A stretch of DNA of 64,000 bases, taken from positions 1-64,000 of the forward strand of contig JARKQJ010000248.1 in assembly GCA_029973955.1 (NCBI GenBank). Direction: 5' to 3'. The DNA comes from Paludibaculum sp. (GTDB taxonomy: Bacteria > Acidobacteriota > Terriglobia > Bryobacterales > Bryobacteraceae). The notes under the pieces are model-generated. The model was not told the origin of the DNA. It made no database searches and saw nothing but the letters and a program-made list of their open reading frames with translations. Each line of letters begins with the position of its first letter. Positions within the stretch are counted from its first letter, which is position 1. Positions 16,416 to 61,902 of this stretch are shown here, piece after piece. A program made the position numbers and the translations under genes.

Positions 16416-18309
16416 CTTCGCGCTATTCTGTTTCTCCCTTCCGGCGGTCGCGCAGAGACCATCTCCCGCACATTGGAGCGTCGAGCCCGAGGTGTCGAAA
16501 GCCGCGCCGGGCGGCGAGGTGACGCTGCAATTGAAGCTGAAGCTCGATGAGCCTTGGCACATGTACTCGCTGACCACGCCGAAGCCGGGTCCGACGGGCG
16601 GTCCGACGGCGACGACGATCAAGGTAGCGGAAGATCCGGCGGTGGCTTCCTACGAAGTGTACTTCCCTGCCCCGGCGAGCAAGTTCGATCCCAACTTCAA
16701 TCTGCAGACGGAGACGTACGAGAAAGAAGCTGCGTTCTGGGTGAAGGTGAAGCTGGCCTCCGGTGTGAAGGCGGGTCCGCTGGAACTGACGGTGCAGACG
16801 CGGTACCAGCTTTGCACGGAGAAGGAGTGCCTGCCTCCGAAGAAGGTTCCGGTGCCGGCGAAGGTGGAGGTGGCGGCGGGCGTGGCGGCGGCCGCGGCGG
16901 CGGCGATTCCGCCGGAGTACAAGCTGTTCCAGGTGGCGGCGGAGGGCGCGAAGCCGGCAGAGGGGGCGAGGCCGACAGAGGATGCGAAACCGGCGGCGGC
17001 GCGGCCGCAGGACCAGCCACTGGGGACGTTCCTGCTGGTGGCGTTTGGCTTCGGCCTGGCGGCGATCTTCACGCCCTGCGTCTTTCCGATGATCCCGATC
17101 ACGATGTCGTTCTTCCTGGGGCAAGGCAGCACGAGCCGGGGCGCGGCGGTGCGGCAGGCGTTGACGTTCTGCGTGGGAATCGTGGTGTTGTTTACGGCCA
17201 TCGGGTTTGGACTGAGCGCGGCGCTGGGTCCGTTCGCGGTGGTGCAGATGGCGTCGAGCCCGTGGGTGAACGGGGTGATCTGTGTGGTGTTCTTCGTGTT
17301 CGGGCTGAGCCTGCTGGGGGCGTTCGAGATCACGCTGCCGACGGGGCTGCTGACGAAGCTGAACATGGCATCGACGCGCGGCGGGCTGCTGGGCACGCTA
17401 TTGATGGGGCTGACGTTCTGCCTGGCTTCGTTCGCTTGCGTGGGTCCGTTCATGGGGACGCTGCTGGCGGCGTCGGTGGGCGGAGACCGGCTGCAACCGG
17501 TGCTGGGGATGCTGGCGTTTTCGACGGCGCTGTCGTCGCCGTTCTTCCTGCTGGCGCTGTTTCCGTCGTTTTTGCAGCGGCTGCCCCGCAGCGGCGGCTG
17601 GATGAGCCGGGTGAAGGTGGTGCTGGGGTTCCTGGTGCTGGCGGCGCTGCTGAAGTACCTTTCCAATATCGACCAGGTGCTGCAGTGGGGGCTGTTGACG
17701 CGGGAGCGTTTCCTGGCGCTGTGGGCCGTGCTGTTTGCGCTGCCGGGGCTGTACCTGCTGGGGCTGCTGCCGATGGAGGGAATCCGGCGGGATGAAGAGT
17801 TGAAGCCGGGGCGGCTCCTGGTGGCGATTGTGTTCCTTGGATTCGCTCTGAGCCTGGTACCGGGGATGTTCGGGGCCCGCCTGGGGGAGATCGAGGCTTA
17901 TATTCCCGCGCCGGCCGAAGGGAGTTCACTGGTTGGCGGTGGAGCGGCGGCTGCGCCGAAGTGGATGAAGAACGACTTCGACGGGGCGAAAGCGCGCGCC
18001 GCGGCCGAGAACAAGCCGATTCTGGTGGCGTTCACGGGCTATGCCTGCACGAACTGCCATTGGATGAAAGCGAACATGTTTCCGCGGCCGGAGATCGCGG
18101 AGGCGTTGGGCGGGTATGTGCTGGTGGAGCTGTACACCGACGGCACGGACGCGGCGAGCGAGAGCAACCAGTCGTTGCAGGACAAGCTGTTTCAGACGGT
18201 GGCGATTCCCTATTACGCCGTGTTGGACAGTTCCGGCAAGGTACTGGGGGCCTATCCGGGGCTGACGAAGGACTCGCGGGAGTTCCTGAAGTTTCTGAAG
18301 CGGAGTTAG
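16291..18309 (+). CDS. dsbD: thiol:disulfide interchange protein DsbD
   Basis: DsbD carries reducing power from cytoplasmic thioredoxin across the inner membrane. The order is signal segment ([18 protein letters not shown]), a periplasmic DsbD-alpha domain with the [13 protein letters not shown] cysteines, then a transmembrane core with [18 protein letters not shown] and [12 protein letters not shown]. The C-terminal thioredoxin-like domain has [10 protein letters not shown] (CxxC, about residues 586-589). The ATG at 16291 has a good GGGAG 6 nt upstream but lies 125 nt inside plsX and gives a long n-region before the signal. A TTG at 16360 would give a more usual leader. The gene ends tail to tail with fliJ, with interlocked stop codons. 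Confidence 0.92.
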
Positions 18310-18752
18310 GCGGGCCGCTCCCCCTCCCGCCAGCGGGCGATGACCAGTTCCGCAACGGCGCTCTCGGTTTCCTTGTCCACCTCCTGACGCCAGCCGGCGA
18401 GCTTCTTTTCCCGCAGGCGGTTCAGCGCCTCGACATCGCGCCGGGCGTCAAGCAGGAGTTGACGCTGTGTTTCGATGCGCTCGTTGAGCCGGGTGGAGGC
18501 GAGGCGGATCTGCTCGCGCTCCTGCTCTACCCAACGACGGAAGCCCTCCATGGCGGCGAGTTCCTCGAAGACGAGTACGGGCTTGGCGCGCAGATCCTGG
18601 CGGACGCCGAACTCCTGGCGATCGAGGAGGAGACGGCGCTGCTCCAGGGCCGTACGCTCACCGAGCAGGAGCATCATCTGGGACTGGGCGAGTTCCAGGC
18701 GCACCTGGCGGATCCCTCGCAGCTTCTCTAGCGGGAACTGGAACTTCTTCAT
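18306..18752 (-). CDS. fliJ: flagellar protein FliJ
   Basis: This 148-residue, almost fully helical and charged protein begins MKKFQFPLEKLRGIRQVRLE, as FliJ proteins do. FliJ is the coiled-coil stalk protein of the flagellar export ATPase and helps deliver chaperone complexes. Its ATG overlaps the fliI stop by 4 nt, and it is the last gene of the operon. Its TAA shares bases with the TAG of the convergent dsbD. The identification rests on position plus coiled-coil character, since FliJ sequences diverge widely. Confidence 0.85.
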   Translation of the reverse strand: MKKFQFPLEKLRGIRQVRLELAQSQMMLLLGERTALEQRRLLLDRQEFGVRQDLRAKPVLVFEELAAMEGFRRWVEQEREQIRLASTRLNERIETQRQLLLDARRDVEALNRLREKKLAGWRQEVDKETESAVAELVIARWREGERPA

Positions 18753-20098
18753 GACTGGCCTTTCCGGACGGCCGGGACGGCGCCGCAAAGCTCGGCCATG
18801 CGGGCGGCGGTGTCGGTGAGGTTCGAGCTTTCGTCGGGACGCTGGCGGAGGAAGGATTTCAGATGGTCCTCGACGCGGAGGGCATCGTCGAGGCGCGCGT
18901 TGGAGCCAGAGGTATAGGCGCCGATGCGGATGAGGTCTTCCGAAGACTGCAGGAGGGCGAGGGTTTCGCGGAGGCGATTGGCGCAGTCTTTCTGCTGCGG
19001 GCCGGCGACGCGGGAGGCGAGGCGGGAGACGGATTGGAGGATATCGATGGCGGGGTAGTGGCCGGCCTGGCCGAGGGCCCGGGAGAGGACAATGTGGCCG
19101 TCGAGGATGCCGCGGACGGCGTCGGCGATGGGCTCATTCATGTCGTCGCCTTCGACGAGGACGGTGAAGAAGCCGGTGATGGAGCCGCGGGTGAAGCGGC
19201 CGGCGCGCTCGAAGATGCGTGGGAGCATCTGGAAGACGCTGGGGGTGTAGCCCTTCTGGCTGGGCGGTTCGCCGGCGGCGAGGCCGATTTCGCGCTGGGC
19301 CATGGCGAGGCGGGTGACGGAGTCGGCGACGAGGAGGACGGACTTGCCCTGGTCGCGGAAGTACTCGGCGACGGCGAGGGCGACGAAGCAGGCGCGGACG
19401 CGGAGGGGCGAGGGGCGGTCTGAGGTGGCGACGACGAGGACGGACTTGCGCATGCCTTCGGGGCCGAGTTCGTGCTCGATGAAGTCGCGCACCTCGCGGT
19501 TGCGCTCGCCGACGAGGGCGAGGACGCAGACGTCGGCATCGTTGTTCTTGATGAGCGAGCCGAGGAGGGTGCTTTTGCCGACGCCGCTGCCGCCGAAGAT
19601 GCCGACGCGCTGGCCGCGGCCGCAGGTGAGGAAGCCGTCGATGGCGCGGACGCCGGTGCCGAGGACTTCGCGGATGGGCTCGCGTTCGAGCGGGCCGGGC
19701 GGGGTGGCGTAGATGTCGTAGCGGGCAGTGGCCTCGATGGGCGGACCGCCGTCCATGGGGCGGCCGAAGCCGTCGAGGACCCGGCCGAGGAGCGAGTCGC
19801 CCACGGCCACGCGCGCCTCGCCGCGGCGGGTAACGATGGTGTCGCCGAGCTGCAGGCCGGCGGTCTCTTCGAGCGGCATGGAGAGGACGCCGCCGTCCCG
19901 GAAGCCGATCACCTGCGTGCGGACCGGCGGGCCGCTCGGCCGCAGGATCTCGCAGAAATCGCCCAGGCCGGCGGCCGGACCGCGGGACTCGACGAGGAGG
20001 CCGGCGACCTTGGTGACCTGCCCGAAGCTGCGCACAGGGTCACTGGAGGCGAGGGCCTTCTCGAAATGCGCCAGATCGAACCAACTGGAAGCTGTCAT
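18749..20098 (-). CDS. fliI: flagellum-specific export ATPase FliI
   Basis: FliI is the hexameric ATPase of the flagellar type III export apparatus. The 449 residues carry GIFGGSGVGKSTLLGSL (Walker A) near residue 165, GERNREVRDFIEHELGPEG, VLLVADSVTRLAMAQREIGL (Walker B region) and GSITGFFTVLVEGDDMNEP, which match the FliI/F1-beta-like family. The start overlaps the end of fliH by 4 nt. Confidence 0.97.
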   Translation of the reverse strand: MTASSWFDLAHFEKALASSDPVRSFGQVTKVAGLLVESRGPAAGLGDFCEILRPSGPPVRTQVIGFRDGGVLSMPLEETAGLQLGDTIVTRRGEARVAVGDSLLGRVLDGFGRPMDGGPPIEATARYDIYATPPGPLEREPIREVLGTGVRAIDGFLTCGRGQRVGIFGGSGVGKSTLLGSLIKNNDADVCVLALVGERNREVRDFIEHELGPEGMRKSVLVVATSDRPSPLRVRACFVALAVAEYFRDQGKSVLLVADSVTRLAMAQREIGLAAGEPPSQKGYTPSVFQMLPRIFERAGRFTRGSITGFFTVLVEGDDMNEPIADAVRGILDGHIVLSRALGQAGHYPAIDILQSVSRLASRVAGPQQKDCANRLRETLALLQSSEDLIRIGAYTSGSNARLDDALRVEDHLKSFLRQRPDESSNLTDTAARMAELCGAVPAVRKGQS

Positions 20099-23589: not shown

Positions 23590-23883
23590 TTACAACTGCA
23601 TCCTCATGACTTCCTGATAGGCCTGCACGGCCTTGTTGCGCATCTGCAGCAGGAGGTCGAAAGCCAACTGCGCCTGCTGCTGTTCGAGCGCCACCTGGTG
23701 CAATTCGCCGCCTTCTCCGCTGAGAAACCGCCGGACTGTGGCGTCAGCCGAATTCTGCATGGAATTGACGGTCTCCACCGCTGAGGCCATGACGGATGAG
23801 AAGCCGCCGCTTTCGCCGCCGGAGGGCCGTACCTGCCCGATCTGCTCCGGCAGGCGGATGGGAGTGATACCGGAGATGGTCAT
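23590..23883 (-). CDS. fliE: flagellar hook-basal body protein FliE
   Basis: FliE joins the MS ring to the rod. The 97-residue protein ends with the family pattern ALEQQQAQLAFDLLLQMRNK followed by VQAYQEVMRMQL. It overlaps the end of flgC by 4 nt and precedes fliF, which is the usual order. Confidence 0.93.
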   Translation of the reverse strand: MTISGITPIRLPEQIGQVRPSGGESGGFSSVMASAVETVNSMQNSADATVRRFLSGEGGELHQVALEQQQAQLAFDLLLQMRNKAVQAYQEVMRMQL

Positions 23884-24317
23884 TTCATCAACTCGATGGA
23901 CTTGGCGATCATGTCTTTCACGGCCGAGAAGGCCGCCACGTTGGCCTGATAGCCGCGCGTGGCGCCCATCAGGTCCACCATCTCTTCCGCGGGGTTGATG
24001 CGCGGGTAGGCGACGTAGCCGCGCTCGTCGGCGTGCGGGTGGCCGGGTTGATAGCGCATGTCGGGATCGCGGGTGTCCTGCCGGACCTCACCGATCTCGA
24101 CACCCAGGTTGGCGGCCGACATTTCAGACTGAAACACCGCCGCGAAGGGCGATTCCTGCGAGGCGCTTTCGAAGACCACGTCGCGGCGGCGATAAGGGCC
24201 GCCTTCGGGCGTGCGCGTGGTCTCGGCATTGGCGAGGTTTTCCACCACCACCTGGGCGCGCTCGCGCTGGGCAGCCATGCCCGAGGCGCTGACGGACATG
24301 ACATTGAAGAGACTCAT
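23880..24317 (-). CDS. flgC: flagellar basal-body rod protein FlgC
   Basis: This 145-residue proximal rod protein starts MSLFNVMSVSASGMAAQRER and contains VVVENLANAETTRT, the rod-family ANxANxxT motif. The C-terminal coil GYVAYPRINPAEEMVDLMGA followed by RGYQANVAAF is conserved. AAAGGAG stands 8 nt upstream of the chosen ATG. It sits 16 nt after flgB. Confidence 0.96.
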   Translation of the reverse strand: MSLFNVMSVSASGMAAQRERAQVVVENLANAETTRTPEGGPYRRRDVVFESASQESPFAAVFQSEMSAANLGVEIGEVRQDTRDPDMRYQPGHPHADERGYVAYPRINPAEEMVDLMGATRGYQANVAAFSAVKDMIAKSIELMK

Positions 24318-24333
24318 CCGTGCACTCCTTTCG

Positions 24334-24666
24334 TCAACGACCCTCATCGATGGCCTTGCGGATGTCGCGCAGTTCACCGCGCAGCAGGTTCGACGCCACA
24401 TTGAAGCGCAAGGCGTTTTCCGCCAGCAACCGGGACTCGCGGTCCAGGCTGACGTTGTTGCCGTCGTTCTTCATCACCAGGCCGGTTGGCTCCACCACCT
24501 GGGGCGCGGCACCCGGAGCGAGCGACATGTACTCGAACTGGAAGTCGAGGTCTTTGGTGTGATAGCCAGGTGTGTCTACGTTGGCCAGGTTGGCGGCCAC
24601 CAGGCGCTGCCGCTGGGCCAGCAGGTCCATGTAGTGGCCGAGTTGGACACTCAGATCGGTGTGCAT
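24334..24666 (-). CDS. flgB: flagellar basal-body rod protein FlgB
   Basis: This 110-residue proximal rod protein is the first gene of the flagellar run flgB-flgC-fliE-fliF-fliG-fliH-fliI-fliJ. The rod signature RLVAANLANVDTPGYHTKDL follows an N-terminal amphipathic helix. It is somewhat shorter than typical FlgB (about 130). No clear Shine-Dalgarno sequence precedes the ATG. Confidence 0.93.
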   Translation of the reverse strand: MHTDLSVQLGHYMDLLAQRQRLVAANLANVDTPGYHTKDLDFQFEYMSLAPGAAPQVVEPTGLVMKNDGNNVSLDRESRLLAENALRFNVASNLLRGELRDIRKAIDEGR

Positions 24667-41169: not shown

Positions 41170-42228
41170 TTATTCCACCTTCAGCGAAGCCATGTCGATG
41201 GAGAAGCGGTACTTCACGTCCGACCTCGTCATGCGCTCATAGGCCTCGTTGATCTTCTGAATTGGAATCACCTCGACGTCGGCCGTGATGTTATGCGCGC
41301 CGCAGAAGTCCAGCATCTCCTGAGTTTCGGCCAGGCCGCCGATGGGCGAGCCTGAGACGCTCTTGCGGCCGAAGATGAGGCCGAACGAGTTCAGGGCAAG
41401 GGGCTTTTCGGGCGCACCCACCAGCGTCATGTTGCCGTCGCGGGCCAGCAGGTGGATGTAGGCGTTGATGTCATGCTGGGCGGACACGGCGTCCAGGATG
41501 AAGTTGAAGCTGAAAGCGTGGCGCTGCATTTCATTGGCGTTCCGGGAGATCACCACTTCGTCGGCGCCCAGCCGCAGAGCGTCCTCTTTCTTCGATTCCG
41601 AGGTGGTGAAGACTACGACATGCGCGCCCAGAGCGTGCGCGAACTTCACGCCCATGTGACCCAGGCCGCCCAGCCCGACAACGCCCACCTTCTGGCCCTT
41701 GCCCACGTTCCAATGGCGCAGCGGCGAGTATGTGGTGATGCCCGCGCAGAGCAGCGGCGCGGCGCCGGCCAGGTTGAGGTTTCCAGGCACGCGCACGACA
41801 AAGTGCTCGTCCACCACCACGCTGTCGGAGTACCCGCCGTAGGTCACGCCGCCCAGGTGCTTGTCGGGGGCGTTGTAGGTGAGCACGCTGTTCGGACAGA
41901 ACTGCTCCAACCCTTGCTGGCAAGCTGGGCAAGTGCGGTCGGAATCAACCAGGCAGCCCACTCCCGCCAGGTCGCCCACTTTGAACCTGGTGACGCCGGA
42001 GCCGACCTTCGCCACGCGGCCCACGATTTCGTGGCCCGGCACGCAGGGATACACGGTCGGCATCACGCTGTTCCACTCGTCTCGCACCTGGTGCAGGTCG
42101 GAATGGCAGACGCCGCAATAGAGAATTTCAATCTGAACGTCCTTCGCCGTGGGCTCGCGGCGCTGGATGGTGGTGTATGCCAGCCGGCTGGCTGCGCTGG
42201 ACGCGCCGTAGGCTATCGCTTGATACAT
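41170..42228 (-). CDS. zinc-dependent NAD(P) alcohol dehydrogenase (YahK/cinnamyl-alcohol type)
   Basis: This 352-residue medium-chain dehydrogenase has catalytic zinc ligands in YCGVCHSDLHQV and VPGHEIVGRV, and the cofactor fold VGVVGLGGLGHMGVKFA. It should reduce aldehydes, with NADPH suggested by the subfamily. The structural zinc lobe reads VDSDRTCPACQQGLEQFC: the first of the four usual cysteines is Asp, so the lobe may use Asp as a ligand or bind zinc weakly. It lies downstream of the aldo/keto reductase on the same strand, 51 nt away, and both are probably controlled by the divergent AraC regulator. Confidence 0.93.
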   Translation of the reverse strand: MYQAIAYGASSAASRLAYTTIQRREPTAKDVQIEILYCGVCHSDLHQVRDEWNSVMPTVYPCVPGHEIVGRVAKVGSGVTRFKVGDLAGVGCLVDSDRTCPACQQGLEQFCPNSVLTYNAPDKHLGGVTYGGYSDSVVVDEHFVVRVPGNLNLAGAAPLLCAGITTYSPLRHWNVGKGQKVGVVGLGGLGHMGVKFAHALGAHVVVFTTSESKKEDALRLGADEVVISRNANEMQRHAFSFNFILDAVSAQHDINAYIHLLARDGNMTLVGAPEKPLALNSFGLIFGRKSVSGSPIGGLAETQEMLDFCGAHNITADVEVIPIQKINEAYERMTRSDVKYRFSIDMASLKVE

Positions 42229-58993: not shown

Positions 58994-59524
58994 TTAGTGC
59001 ATCATCACCGGAATCGATGCCTCTGCATCCGACCACGCGATCGTCAGCACGCCCTTGTTGCCGCCACCTGCCTGCACGCTGATGGTCAACTGCTCTACCG
59101 GCGCCGTCAGCTTCTTGGCGGTCATCTTCACTCGCCCCAGGTCCTGCTTCTCGTCGTAATTGTAGGCGCCCCACTGCTTCGCCACCTTGTTCAGGATCAA
59201 AGTCCACTCCTTCGGCCCGGGAATCGTAAACAGCGAATAGGTCCCGGCCGGCACGTGCAGCGAGCCCAGCATCACGTCCCCTTCCGTGGTGAACGTCGTC
59301 GCGTCATCGGCGCCCGTCCGCCACACCTTCCCGTAAGGCGCCAGCGTCCCTTCCCACACATTGCGCCCCTTCACATAAGGACGTCCATAGGTAATCGTGA
59401 TCGCTTTCCCGCCCACGACGCCCTTGGTTGTCTCGTGCGGGCTCGCCGGCTTCTTCGCGTCCTGCGCCATTACCGCGCCGGTAAGAAGCCCCATTCCCAT
59501 CAGTGCAACCAGCATTCTCTTCAT
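58994..59524 (-). CDS. exported DUF2911 protein
   Basis: This 176-residue exported protein has a signal peptide (LVALMGMGLLTGAVMAQ). The DUF2911 pattern is clear: ITITYGRPYVKGRNVWEGTL, VWRTGADDATTFTTEGDV and PAGTYSLFTIPGPKEWTLIL. These proteins are widespread in Bacteroidota and Acidobacteriota and have no known activity. It is convergent with the S9 gene (3 nt apart). A purine-rich GGAAAGGGAA lies upstream of the start. Confidence 0.9.
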   Translation of the reverse strand: MKRMLVALMGMGLLTGAVMAQDAKKPASPHETTKGVVGGKAITITYGRPYVKGRNVWEGTLAPYGKVWRTGADDATTFTTEGDVMLGSLHVPAGTYSLFTIPGPKEWTLILNKVAKQWGAYNYDEKQDLGRVKMTAKKLTAPVEQLTISVQAGGGNKGVLTIAWSDAEASIPVMMH

Positions 59525-59811
59525 TTCGTCTGTTCCCTTTCCTCGAGATTCCCTACGATACCTCAGAAGAGGCCACGGCGCACTTCCGGCGCGCCTTCCT
59601 TCCCATCTTTGGATGCCCACCCGGCCCTGCTCGATGCCCGAATCTCCGGCGCTCCCGACTTGCCTCAGCAGCCTGCCTGCAAACATGGTTAGAATAGGAT
59701 TCACACGCAGGGTATTGCCCGGCGTGGTGAGTCATCAGTGTCCGGAACCCGCCCGCGCTTGGCCTCCGGATGCGCGTGGCGTCCGGATCAAGGAGCAGAG
59801 AGGAAACCTCG

Positions 59812-60096
59812 ATGGGTGAAGCACTAGGAATGGTGGAATGCCGTGGTCTTGTCTCCATGGTGGAGGCCGCCGATGCGATGGTTAAAGCCGCCAAGGTGAC
59901 CCTGGTCGGCTGGGAAAAGATCGGTTCGGGCTACGTGACCGCGCTCGTTCGCGGCGATGTCGCCGCCGTTCGCGCCGCCACTGACGCCGGCGCCGCCGCC
60001 GCCCGCCGCGTTGGCGAACTCGTCGCCGTCCACGTCATCCCGCGCCCGCACCCCAGCCTGGAAGACGTCCTGCCGATCGGCAAGTCCTCCAAGTAA
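59812..60096 (+). CDS. microcompartment shell protein, BMC-H (PduA/EutM type)
   Basis: This 94-residue hexameric shell protein is nearly canonical. [20 protein letters not shown] opens the fold, [20 protein letters not shown] contains the pore loop Gly38-Ser39-Gly40 with Tyr41 next to it, and [20 protein letters not shown] ends the domain. AGAGAGG lies 8 nt upstream. It starts a four-gene shell cassette with three pentamer genes and is followed by the first of them after 21 nt. No aldehyde dehydrogenase, aldolase or cofactor enzyme is adjacent, so the cargo is unknown. Confidence 0.96.
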
Positions 60097-60117
60097 GGCC
60101 GGGACAGGTCCAGCACC

Positions 60118-60396
60118 ATGACGCTAGGACGCGTCGTCGGAAGCATCGTCGCCACCCGCAAGGATCCGCGGCTCGAAGGTCATAAACTGCTTATCGTCAA
60201 GCCCGTTACTCCCGACGGCAAGGATGAGGCCGGTTATCTCATCGCTGTCGATACTGTCAGCGCCGGGTTCCGGGAACTCGTCATCACCGTCGCCGGCTCC
60301 AGCGCCCGCATGGCCGACGGGTGCAAGGATAAGCCCGTCGATTGCGTCATCGTCGGCATCGTCGACGGTATCTCCATCGACGACGCACGGCCCTAG
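60118..60396 (+). CDS. microcompartment vertex protein, BMC-P (EutN/CcmL type), copy 1
   Basis: This 92-residue pentamer protein begins MTLGRVVGSIVATRKDPRLE, contains HKLLIVKPVTPDGKDEAGYL and ends IVGIVDGISI. The usual GAGxG loop after the central strand reads VSAGFRELV, a departure from the canonical form. Pentamers cap the vertices of microcompartments. It is the first of three different copies in a row. Confidence 0.94.
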   Translation: MTLGRVVGSIVATRKDPRLEGHKLLIVKPVTPDGKDEAGYLIAVDTVSAGFRELVITVAGSSARMADGCKDKPVDCVIVGIVDGISIDDARP

Positions 60397-60406
60397 GTCC
60401 AACATC

Positions 60407-60694
60407 ATGCAGCTCGGAAGAGTCATCGGCCGGGTTTGGTCCAGCGTCAAGAACCGCGGGCTCACCTCCCAGCGGCTGCTCATCGTTCAGCCGCTCAAGG
60501 CGGATCTCACCGCCTCCGGCCGCACTCTCATCTGCACGGATTGCACCGGCGCGGGAGCCGGCGAACTCATCTATTGGGTCCGCGGCCGCGAGGCCTCGTT
60601 CCCTTTCACTCCCGAAGACGTCGCCAGCGACGCCACCATCGTCGGAATCGTCGATGAGGTCAACATCGCAAAAAAGAAGGCGCCGTCATGTTGA
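60407..60694 (+). CDS. microcompartment vertex protein, BMC-P, copy 2
   Basis: This 95-residue pentamer protein starts MQLGRVIGRVWSSVKNRGL, with LLIVQPLKADL and the canonical TGAGAGELIYWVRG loop. It has three cysteines (43, 46 and 95), including CTDC next to the loop, which the other two copies lack. This could matter for redox or metal behaviour in the vertex. It begins 10 nt after copy 1. Confidence 0.93.
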   Translation: MQLGRVIGRVWSSVKNRGLTSQRLLIVQPLKADLTASGRTLICTDCTGAGAGELIYWVRGREASFPFTPEDVASDATIVGIVDEVNIAKKKAPSC

Positions 60695-61050
60695 TTGCCC
60701 GCGTCGTCGGCGACATCACCTCCACCTGCAAGCACCCCTCGCACGAGGGCAAGAAGATCCTGCTCGTTCAACCCCTCGATCTCGACGGCTCCGAGCGCGG
60801 CAACCCCGTCGTCGCCGTCGATAGCGTCAACGCCGGCGCCGGAGACCGTGTCCTGCTCGTGCAGGATGGTTTCGCCGCCTTCACCTCCGTCGGCCACAAA
60901 CTCGCTCCGCTCGACGCCGCCGTCATCGGCATCATCGATCGAGTGGACTTACTCCCGGAAGTCGTCCCCGCTGTCGCTGCGCCCGCCCCCTCGCCGGCTC
61001 CCCCGGCCCCCCTTCCTCCGAAGAAGCAGAACAAGAAGAAGAATCCCTAA
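60688..61050 (+). CDS. microcompartment vertex protein, BMC-P, copy 3 with Pro/Lys tail
   Basis: This 120-residue pentamer protein overlaps copy 2 by 7 nt. The core (MLIARVVGDITSTCKHPSHE, KILLVQPLDLDGSERG, VNAGAGDRVLLVQ, IGIIDRVDLL) is normal. From about residue 90 a Pro/Ala-rich tail runs into a Lys/Asn-rich end (PPKKQNKKKNP), about 30 residues beyond the usual length. The tail is encoded opposite the last 102 nt of the convergent membrane gene. Confidence 0.93.
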   Translation: MLIARVVGDITSTCKHPSHEGKKILLVQPLDLDGSERGNPVVAVDSVNAGAGDRVLLVQDGFAAFTSVGHKLAPLDAAVIGIIDRVDLLPEVVPAVAAPAPSPAPPAPLPPKKQNKKKNP

Positions 61051-61608
61051 TCCCGCCACGGCCGCCTCAAACGTGCTGAAGGCCACGTGCAACGCCCCAA
61101 ATTGCTGGCGCGCCGCCTCCGCTCCCTGCGCACTGTACATCACCCGCCCCGTCTCCACAATCCGCGGAATCAGCAGGAAATGGATCGCCAGCGACAACAC
61201 CAGCATGCCCGCCGAAATCCCCAGAATCGTCTTCCGCACCGTCGTGAAGAACAACAGCAGGAAGCAAAGGACCCCGCTTAGAATCAACTGCACCATCCCC
61301 CAGCTCTCGAACATCAGCCGGTTCGCCTCCCCCACCTGGTAGCGCAGCACCTCCCGCAGCGTGTTCTCTCCCAGCAGCTTCAGCGCCTTGATGAATGCCG
61401 GAGGAGACACCTGCAACGCGCTGTCGACCGACCGGAACGCCGCCGGCGCCACCAGCACCAGCATCATCGCCGCCCCCAGCCACGCCGCCACAAGCACCGC
61501 GCAGAGCCGCCGGACCACCGATGCCGCCTCATCCCCGGCTACCCTCAGCCTCCCGCTGCTCCTTCTGCGCCCGCTCTCGATCTTCTCGGAATCAAGTGGA
61601 TTCGACAT
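60949..61608 (-). CDS. DUF4149-like integral membrane protein
   Basis: This 219-residue membrane protein has about four helices: LCAVLVAAWLGAAMMLVLVA, MVQLILSGVLCFLLLFF, TILGISAGMLVLSLAIHFLL and VAGLGILLLVLLL. VAAWLGAAMMLVLVAPAAF followed by SALQVSPPAFIKA resembles DUF4149 proteins. An Arg/Lys-rich N-terminus and a Gly/Arg-rich C-terminus flank the core. The start at MSNPLDSEKIE is preferred to an earlier codon. The last 102 nt are antisense to the tail of BMC-P copy 3. Confidence 0.78.
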   Translation of the reverse strand: MSNPLDSEKIESGRRRSSGRLRVAGDEAASVVRRLCAVLVAAWLGAAMMLVLVAPAAFRSVDSALQVSPPAFIKALKLLGENTLREVLRYQVGEANRLMFESWGMVQLILSGVLCFLLLFFTTVRKTILGISAGMLVLSLAIHFLLIPRIVETGRVMYSAQGAEAARQQFGALHVAFSTFEAAVAGLGILLLVLLLRRKGGRGSRRGGGRSDSGDDFRE

Positions 61609-61902
61609 CTCGCCAACTCGCTCCCTTTCTTCGCACAAGAATTCATCTTAATCCACGCTCCCTCGGCCAAGTCCACCACGAAGGTACGCCCGCCCGCGGC
61701 GGTCGCCGCCTCCCCGCCCCAAGCCACGGGACATCCTGATCCGCAACGCCCCCGCCCGCCTCTAAACCCGCCTCCCTCCTCCACTTGCCGCCGTTCTCTC
61801 TTTCGGGCCGGCTCCAGCCGCTTCCCCCCCGCGCTGGGCACATTCCAGGCCCTCGCATCCCCCCGCTGCCTGATTCTCTTTCAATCCACCCCACACCGCA
61901 GG

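Follow-up and report, generated by a model that had tools for sequence, protein, structure and literature searches.

The closest described relatives of the locus reported here are microcompartments of the ACI type, which PMC8217296 characterizes by a class II aldolase with an encapsulation peptide, a hydroxyacid dehydrogenase, a triplet of BMC-P pentamer genes, at least one BMC-H hexamer gene, and an aldehyde dehydrogenase (AldDH) encoded on a satellite locus. According to the same source, the ACI AldDH is phylogenetically similar to that of MIC3 only, the type occurs mainly in Subdivisions 4 and 6, and its function is left open. Further points of comparison are FRAG loci (PMC8217296), PVM and PVM-like loci (PMC4207490, PMC8217296), and the PduS/PduT pair of propanediol compartments, which serves as an electron path and in which a PduT cysteine coordinates a 4Fe-4S cluster (PMC4207490). 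No earlier account of Bryobacterales microcompartments was recognized among the literature matches listed.

The window, by which we mean the whole 64,000-nt stretch of DNA that was analyzed, encodes four shell proteins in a tight cassette on the plus strand. An EutM-like BMC-H gene (59812-60096; 94 aa; PF00936, E = 7.8e-30), which passes the NCBIfam EutM model PRK15474 (139.8 bits; cut-off 133), is followed by the BMC-P genes P1 (60118-60396; 92 aa; PF03319, E = 1.1e-28), P2 (60407-60694; 95 aa; PF03319, E = 3.2e-24), and P3 (60688-61050; 120 aa; PF03319, E = 1e-25), the last with a Pro/Ala-rich C-terminal extension. All four reading frames are open and all four Pfam matches are well above their cut-offs. 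An earlier note on this DNA had described this gene content together with spacings of 21 and 10 nt and a 7-nt overlap of P2 and P3, all of which proved exact. Its account of the flanks as encoding exported proteases (an HtrA-like protease and an S9 peptidase), a DUF2911 protein, and S1 was also borne out.

Upstream, the DUF2911 gene (58994-59515, minus strand; PF11138, E = 1.9e-50) is separated from the BMC-H gene by a slot (59516-59811) that, judged by synteny with the congeneric genome G026, is the position of a class II aldolase in relatives and is empty here. Downstream, a gene for a likely membrane protein (60949-61638, minus strand; start uncertain) converges on P3 and overlaps its 3' end; a Pfam search assigned its product to no family. 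Both genes were used as synteny markers, the DUF2911 flank being common to the window, G026, G060, and G039, and the DUF2911 protein is not thought to belong to the organelle. The cassette lies ~60 kb into a 72-kb contig and 11 kb from the contig end, and its neighborhood is therefore not cut. Promoter and terminator scans returned nothing. Elsewhere in the window, a zinc alcohol dehydrogenase gene (41170-42228, minus strand) lies ~17.6 kb from the cassette with no sign of a link, and the regions 18306-20098 and 23590-24666 (-) resemble by eye the flagellar genes FliJ/FliI and FliE/FlgC/FlgB.

Profile searches of the whole assembly (a 6.5-Mb draft in 282 contigs, 94.5% complete with 6% contamination) recovered three PF03319 matches, all in the window, and six PF00936 matches on four contigs. 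Neither a BMC-T nor a cargo-type enzyme was seen among the genes beside the cassette, as the earlier note had observed, but its description of a microcompartment with no enzymes fails at the level of the genome: two BMC-T genes, a second BMC-H gene, and three enzyme genes lie on three other contigs, each of which carries an additional shell gene beside the gene of an enzyme that is its likely partner. On contig C46, BMC-H is followed by a 607-aa CoA-acylating-type AldDH, a 162-aa protein, and a RecJ-type gene, the last called from domains shown in the relative G022. On contig C245, the gene for a 337-aa protein of the DHDPS family overlaps the start of a 206-aa BMC-T gene, and on contig C223 a 428-aa RnfC/PduS-like flavoprotein precedes a 183-aa PduT-like BMC-T. 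The genome-wide look for an aldehyde dehydrogenase and an aldolase that the note had advised was productive, with each found beside a shell gene. A second locus with a full shell of its own, which the note had named as counting against its view, was not recovered, pentamer genes being found solely in the window. Genomes of the same genus carry all three of the enzyme loci at graded identity (in G070, G026, and G060, respectively: AldDH, 79, 74, and 72%; DHDPS-type, 84, 79, and 69%; RnfC-type, 86, 85, and 80%), which argues against contamination as their source. The note had also suggested a satellite shell locus with its enzymes elsewhere. That the enzymes are encoded elsewhere is supported, but because a main locus is defined in PMC8217296 as BMC-H plus BMC-P, it is the cassette that counts as the main locus, and the term satellite applies to the loci with the enzymes.

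The best NCBIfam models for the AldDH (L010:2626-4449) were those of bifunctional acetaldehyde-CoA/alcohol dehydrogenase and of acetaldehyde dehydrogenase, both under their cut-offs. Residues ~455-607 include a long linker rich in Pro and Ala, within which a helix-like motif recurs, and several relatives carry a Cys-Gly-Cys-type stretch in this part of the protein. The C-terminal module (FVCEADVREA...IVTPAARD) is conserved and has no usable Pfam match; we assume that it resembles the N-terminus of EutQ. The 162-aa protein between AldDH and RecJ (L010:2134-2622) is kept in much of the order and matched no Pfam family and no PDB fold with E < 0.4. In profile searches of the genome, PduL (PF06130) had no match, and the Pta/Ptb family (PF01515) had three matches, none of them on the shell-locus contigs.

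The cassette shares with the ACI type a BMC-P triplet with BMC-H and an AldDH on a satellite (C46, beside BMC-H), and in most relatives BMC-H is immediately preceded by a class II aldolase that carries a C-terminal tail. It differs from that type in two respects: its loci encode neither this aldolase nor the hydroxyacid dehydrogenase, and two additional loci each pair a BMC-T with an enzyme, of the DHDPS type in one and the RnfC type in the other. In G026, a 261-aa class II aldolase (L074:8121-8906; PF00596, E = 5.4e-46) occupies the slot, and aldolases of ~260 aa directly precede BMC-H in G022, G042, G007, and G019 as well. Orthologs of this enzyme, PF00596 with a C-terminal encapsulation-type peptide, are linked to the cassette in 50 of the 61 order genomes with PF03319; 49 have both on one contig, and in G071, counted among the 50, the cassette is at a contig edge and the aldolase on another contig. 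A degraded aldolase remnant upstream of BMC-H was considered and dropped, since matches in 59481-59830 of the window were at chance level only (best E = 0.083). The sole class II aldolase match in the rest of the assembly shows 33% identity, and the enzyme is also absent in G060 (3 contigs), G039, and G049 (both assembled in 1 contig); in these three genomes no match exceeds 35-36% identity.

The same layout was detected across the phylum, where PF03319 occurs in 87 of 199 genomes sampled. Among 18 PF03319 regions read from outside the order, 14 had the arrangement aldolase-H-P1-P2-P3, one had aldolase-H-P1, and three (L329, L330, L335) had other layouts; compared with the order studied here, their aldolases are 40-50% and their BMC-H 78-90% identical. 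A 2-hydroxyacid dehydrogenase of one family lies nearby in 7 of the 18, whereas tblastn with two proteins from ACI regions found no hydroxyacid dehydrogenase (PF00389/PF02826) in the window, in L010-L013, or in 8 further regions of the order that contain the cassette. The empty slot and the ACI layout in relatives and the phylum lead us to read the cassette as an ACI main locus minus its aldolase, and we call it ACI-derived rather than ACI because the locus lacks two defining features, a class II aldolase and a hydroxyacid dehydrogenase.

The four loci also recall FRAG systems in having shell genes at several distant places (four contigs here), a BMC-P triplet, and few adjoining enzymes. However, FRAG loci are grouped by shell composition and are reported from other phyla (PMC8217296), whereas here each satellite has a partner enzyme and the ancestor was likely ACI. 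The likeness to planctomycete (PVM) loci that the earlier note had drawn is superficial, and it is to the ACI layout of Acidobacteria that the cassette stands closest. Several pentamers and the logic of an aldolase plus an AldDH are shared, but PVM, as described in PMC4207490 and PMC8217296, is one locus that includes a class II aldolase and, in most cases, a DeoR regulator, whereas neither is found at the cassette and the AldDH is on another contig. Loci that are PVM-like or of other kinds were observed in G060 (L078), G016 (L171), and G038 (L093), with long class II aldolases, DeoR regulators, PduL or acetate kinase-like genes in varied sets; L078 encodes a long class II aldolase, a DeoR regulator, an AldDH, and an extra BMC-H, apart from the cassette of G060.

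Synteny of the cassette, which the note had proposed comparing in relatives, is kept. Within the order, PF03319 was identified in 61 of 100 genomes, with exactly three copies in 60 of these 61, and PF00936 in 64 of 100; 39 genomes lack PF03319 and 36 lack both families. P1 is 89-96% and BMC-H 94-100% identical within the genus. An AldDH of at least 51% identity is encoded in 56 of the 61 genomes with PF03319 versus 2 of the 39 others, and BMC-H precedes it in all nine genomes read (in G019 as taken from coordinates). Named records among the AldDH matches listed were mostly Bryobacterales, Bryobacteraceae, Candidatus Solibacter, Candidatus Sulfopaludibacter, and unspecified Acidobacteria; this preponderance of Bryobacterales differs from the Subdivisions 4 and 6 that PMC8217296 gives as the main source of ACI. 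Two records titled Arcobacter sp. and Acidimicrobiia (L177, L188) have Bryobacterales-like AldDH loci, and their names are probably wrong. A single contig carries both the cassette and the AldDH locus in 5 of 8 genomes of genus g9, with the two BMC-H genes ~6 kb apart; the arrangement was read directly in G022, L201, L204, L219, and L226, of which the last three are probably the same records as G092, G090, and G022. The number of PF00936 domains equals two, plus two with the DHDPS-type gene and two with the RnfC-type gene, in 53 of the 61 genomes, with five above this prediction (G060, G016, G093, G038, G065) and three one short of it (G074, G004, G035).

The DHDPS-type protein has 19 close orthologs in the order (at least 59% identity, the protein itself included), all of them encoded next to a BMC-T and all with a linker and tail at the C-terminus, whereas three distant paralogs (31-33%) have neither. 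Matches to solved relatives stop at or before residue 305 of 337, and the structural model comprises a barrel like DHDPS/NAL folds (E = 1.3e-21), a linker, and a separate C-terminal helix that is modeled at low confidence (pLDDT ~45). When this tail was compared with that of the class II aldolase, an equal or better score arose in 9 of 3,000 shuffles; the score is reached by 35 of 1,303 called proteins, of which 31 are class II aldolases and one is an AldDH, the remaining three being of other kinds. The linker repeat of the AldDH resembles the class II tail (13 of 3,000 shuffles) and only weakly the DHDPS-type tail (288 of 3,000). Hydrophobic moments of the tails did not exceed those of shuffles, and this measure was dropped as a test for encapsulation peptides. 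Lys163, Tyr136, Ser47, Gly49, and Glu50 are kept in all eight aligned orthologs. Phe141, which follows the YNxP motif, is invariant in the same eight, and the active-site arginine of DapA is lacking; we take Phe141 to match the DHDPS arginine that follows this motif (E. coli numbering). Phenylalanine at the arginine position suggests that the protein may be a pyruvate-type aldolase rather than a DHDPS. A DHDPS-family enzyme as microcompartment cargo was not recognized in the literature listings, and an entry in the supplements of PMC8217296 is possible.

The DHDPS-type gene with its BMC-T occurs in all nine order genomes, out of 59 bearing the cassette, that lack the class II aldolase (G000, G060, G070, G016, and five of genus g11), versus 8 of the 50 that have it (Fisher p = 1.9e-6, kinship ignored). 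Inclusion of G038 and G065, which have a different kind of PF03319 locus and both encode the DHDPS-type gene (G038 read directly, G065 judged from coordinates), gives 11 of 11 versus 8 of 50 (p = 1.8e-7, kinship ignored). A tree of AldDH from 47 genomes indicates about three losses of the aldolase. In 46 of them, the tree count comes to 3 changes for aldolase loss and 5 for the DHDPS-type gene; 9 genomes have lost the aldolase and have the DHDPS-type gene, 8 have both, 29 have the aldolase only, and none lacks both. A kinship-aware test of loss against the DHDPS-type gene had three independent pairs only. With about three events, too few for a kinship correction, the association is suggestive only.

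The RnfC-type gene is present in 28 of 100 order genomes at 62% identity or more, and in two more at 43-44%. It adjoins a PduT-like BMC-T in 29 of the 30 loci, and all 29 have the motif ICSGK in the pore loop of the first domain. The cysteine of this motif aligns with the PduT cysteine (PDB 3n79 and 3pac, by sequence). The present pair has the PduS/PduT arrangement, an RnfC-like flavoprotein beside a tandem BMC-T with a pore-loop cysteine. We take the aligned residue to be the one that coordinates the cluster in PduT. The pair differs from that of propanediol compartments in standing alone on its own contig, with no diol dehydratase noticed adjoining, and the Fe-S cluster is putative here (compare PMC4207490).

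Aldolase genes persist in genomes that lack a shell. Of the 36 order genomes without either shell family, 20 encode an ortholog of the class II aldolase at 55% identity or more, and in 17 of these 20 the tail was examined: 14 retain it, whereas G075, G055, and G061 have lost it. Such a tail is therefore not proof of encapsulation, and its retention implies either some shell-free use or slow decay. The finding that cargo can be condensed by encapsulation peptides even when no shell is present (PMC12339742) would fit this pattern. Among 16 shell-free loci, 8 have the aldolase immediately next to the homolog of the downstream membrane protein gene, and these loci look as if the shell genes alone were removed. 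Loci of this shell-free kind (L154-L169, L173) encode class II aldolases that mostly keep the encapsulation-type tail, and no shell gene was detected in their genomes.

Collectively, these observations suggest, with a probability that we put at roughly 0.6, that the genome encodes one ACI-derived metabolosome at four loci, with the cassette as its main locus, in which the class II aldolase was lost and an aldolase of the DHDPS/NAL family, with a BMC-T and a similar tail, took over. This is probably a known class of organelle in an unusual state: dispersed over four loci, derived from ACI, and with its signature aldolase lost and exchanged. The ancestor would have been an ACI locus with the class II aldolase beside BMC-H and three BMC-P and an AldDH on a satellite. 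After loss of the aldolase gene in this lineage, a Schiff-base-lysine aldolase with its own BMC-T and a similar tail would have become the new aldehyde-making enzyme, within a shell presumably closed by two BMC-H, two BMC-T, and the pentamers. The predicted chemistry would be cleavage of a 2-keto-3-deoxy acid to pyruvate and an aldehyde, followed by conversion of the aldehyde to acyl-CoA and NADH by the CoA-acylating-type AldDH, and electrons may leave through the RnfC/PduS-like flavoprotein and the pore cysteine of the PduT-like BMC-T. A DHDPS/NAL-type aldolase as likely cargo makes 2-keto-3-deoxy acids a testable class of substrate, with the acids derived from fucose and rhamnose among the candidates.

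The same four loci could instead form one metabolosome that gained a second input in the DHDPS-type aldolase, the loss of the class II aldolase being unrelated. Coexistence of the two enzymes in 8 of the 50 aldolase-keeping genomes, including G026 of the same genus, is what this would predict; we nonetheless consider it unlikely, given that none of the 61 PF03319 genomes lacks both aldolases and that the tails of the two enzymes resemble each other. It is more doubtful still that the cassette is the remnant of a decaying ACI compartment, left after loss of the signature enzyme while the other shell-enzyme pairs serve other ends. The slot in the window is indeed vacant, and relatives lack the shell families (PF03319 in 39 of 100 genomes, both in 36) with an aldolase ortholog persisting in 20 of these 36, but four open shell genes, with P1 and BMC-H highly identical within the genus, speak against decay, as does retention of the reduced gene set in five genomes of g11, of which two are assembled in a single contig.

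A PVM-like fucose or rhamnose compartment with its cargo elsewhere is very improbable. The three pentamers, eight GH95 matches in the genome, and the role in carbohydrate use that PMC8217296 proposes for ACI on the strength of its class II aldolase are consistent with it, and the GH95 fucosidase gene that the earlier note had taken as a speculative hint is real, but lies on the minus strand at 47-2476. GH95 genes occur in 42 of the 61 PF03319 genomes versus 12 of the 39 others (Fisher p = 2.3e-4, kinship ignored); they are, however, absent in 19 of those 61, and the PVM-like layout of G060 is separate from the cassette and was seen at none of the four loci of the genome studied here.

Under the reading of an exchanged aldolase, a broader proposal, which we hold tentatively and at somewhat below even odds, is that the signature class II aldolase was exchanged for an unrelated pyruvate-type aldolase with the same kind of tail and its own BMC-T while the shell was kept, with old-only, both, and new-only states alive in one order. 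Elsewhere in the order the reverse loss would have occurred, the shell disappearing and the tailed aldolase remaining, often beside the flanking membrane protein gene and possibly as a shell-free condensate. The function of ACI is left open in PMC8217296. Lineages that keep, exchange, or lose single parts at one site offer a natural series for working out which components are needed for the organelle and what fuel it uses, and tailed aldolases in genomes without shell genes offer a test of encapsulation-type peptides acting alone. Compact loci with a related AldDH of 45-50% identity, BMC-H, BMC-P, and PduL were observed in Brevibacillus, Paenibacillus, Pseudogracilibacillus, and Sporosarcina (L234, L237, L240, L242, L244, L247).
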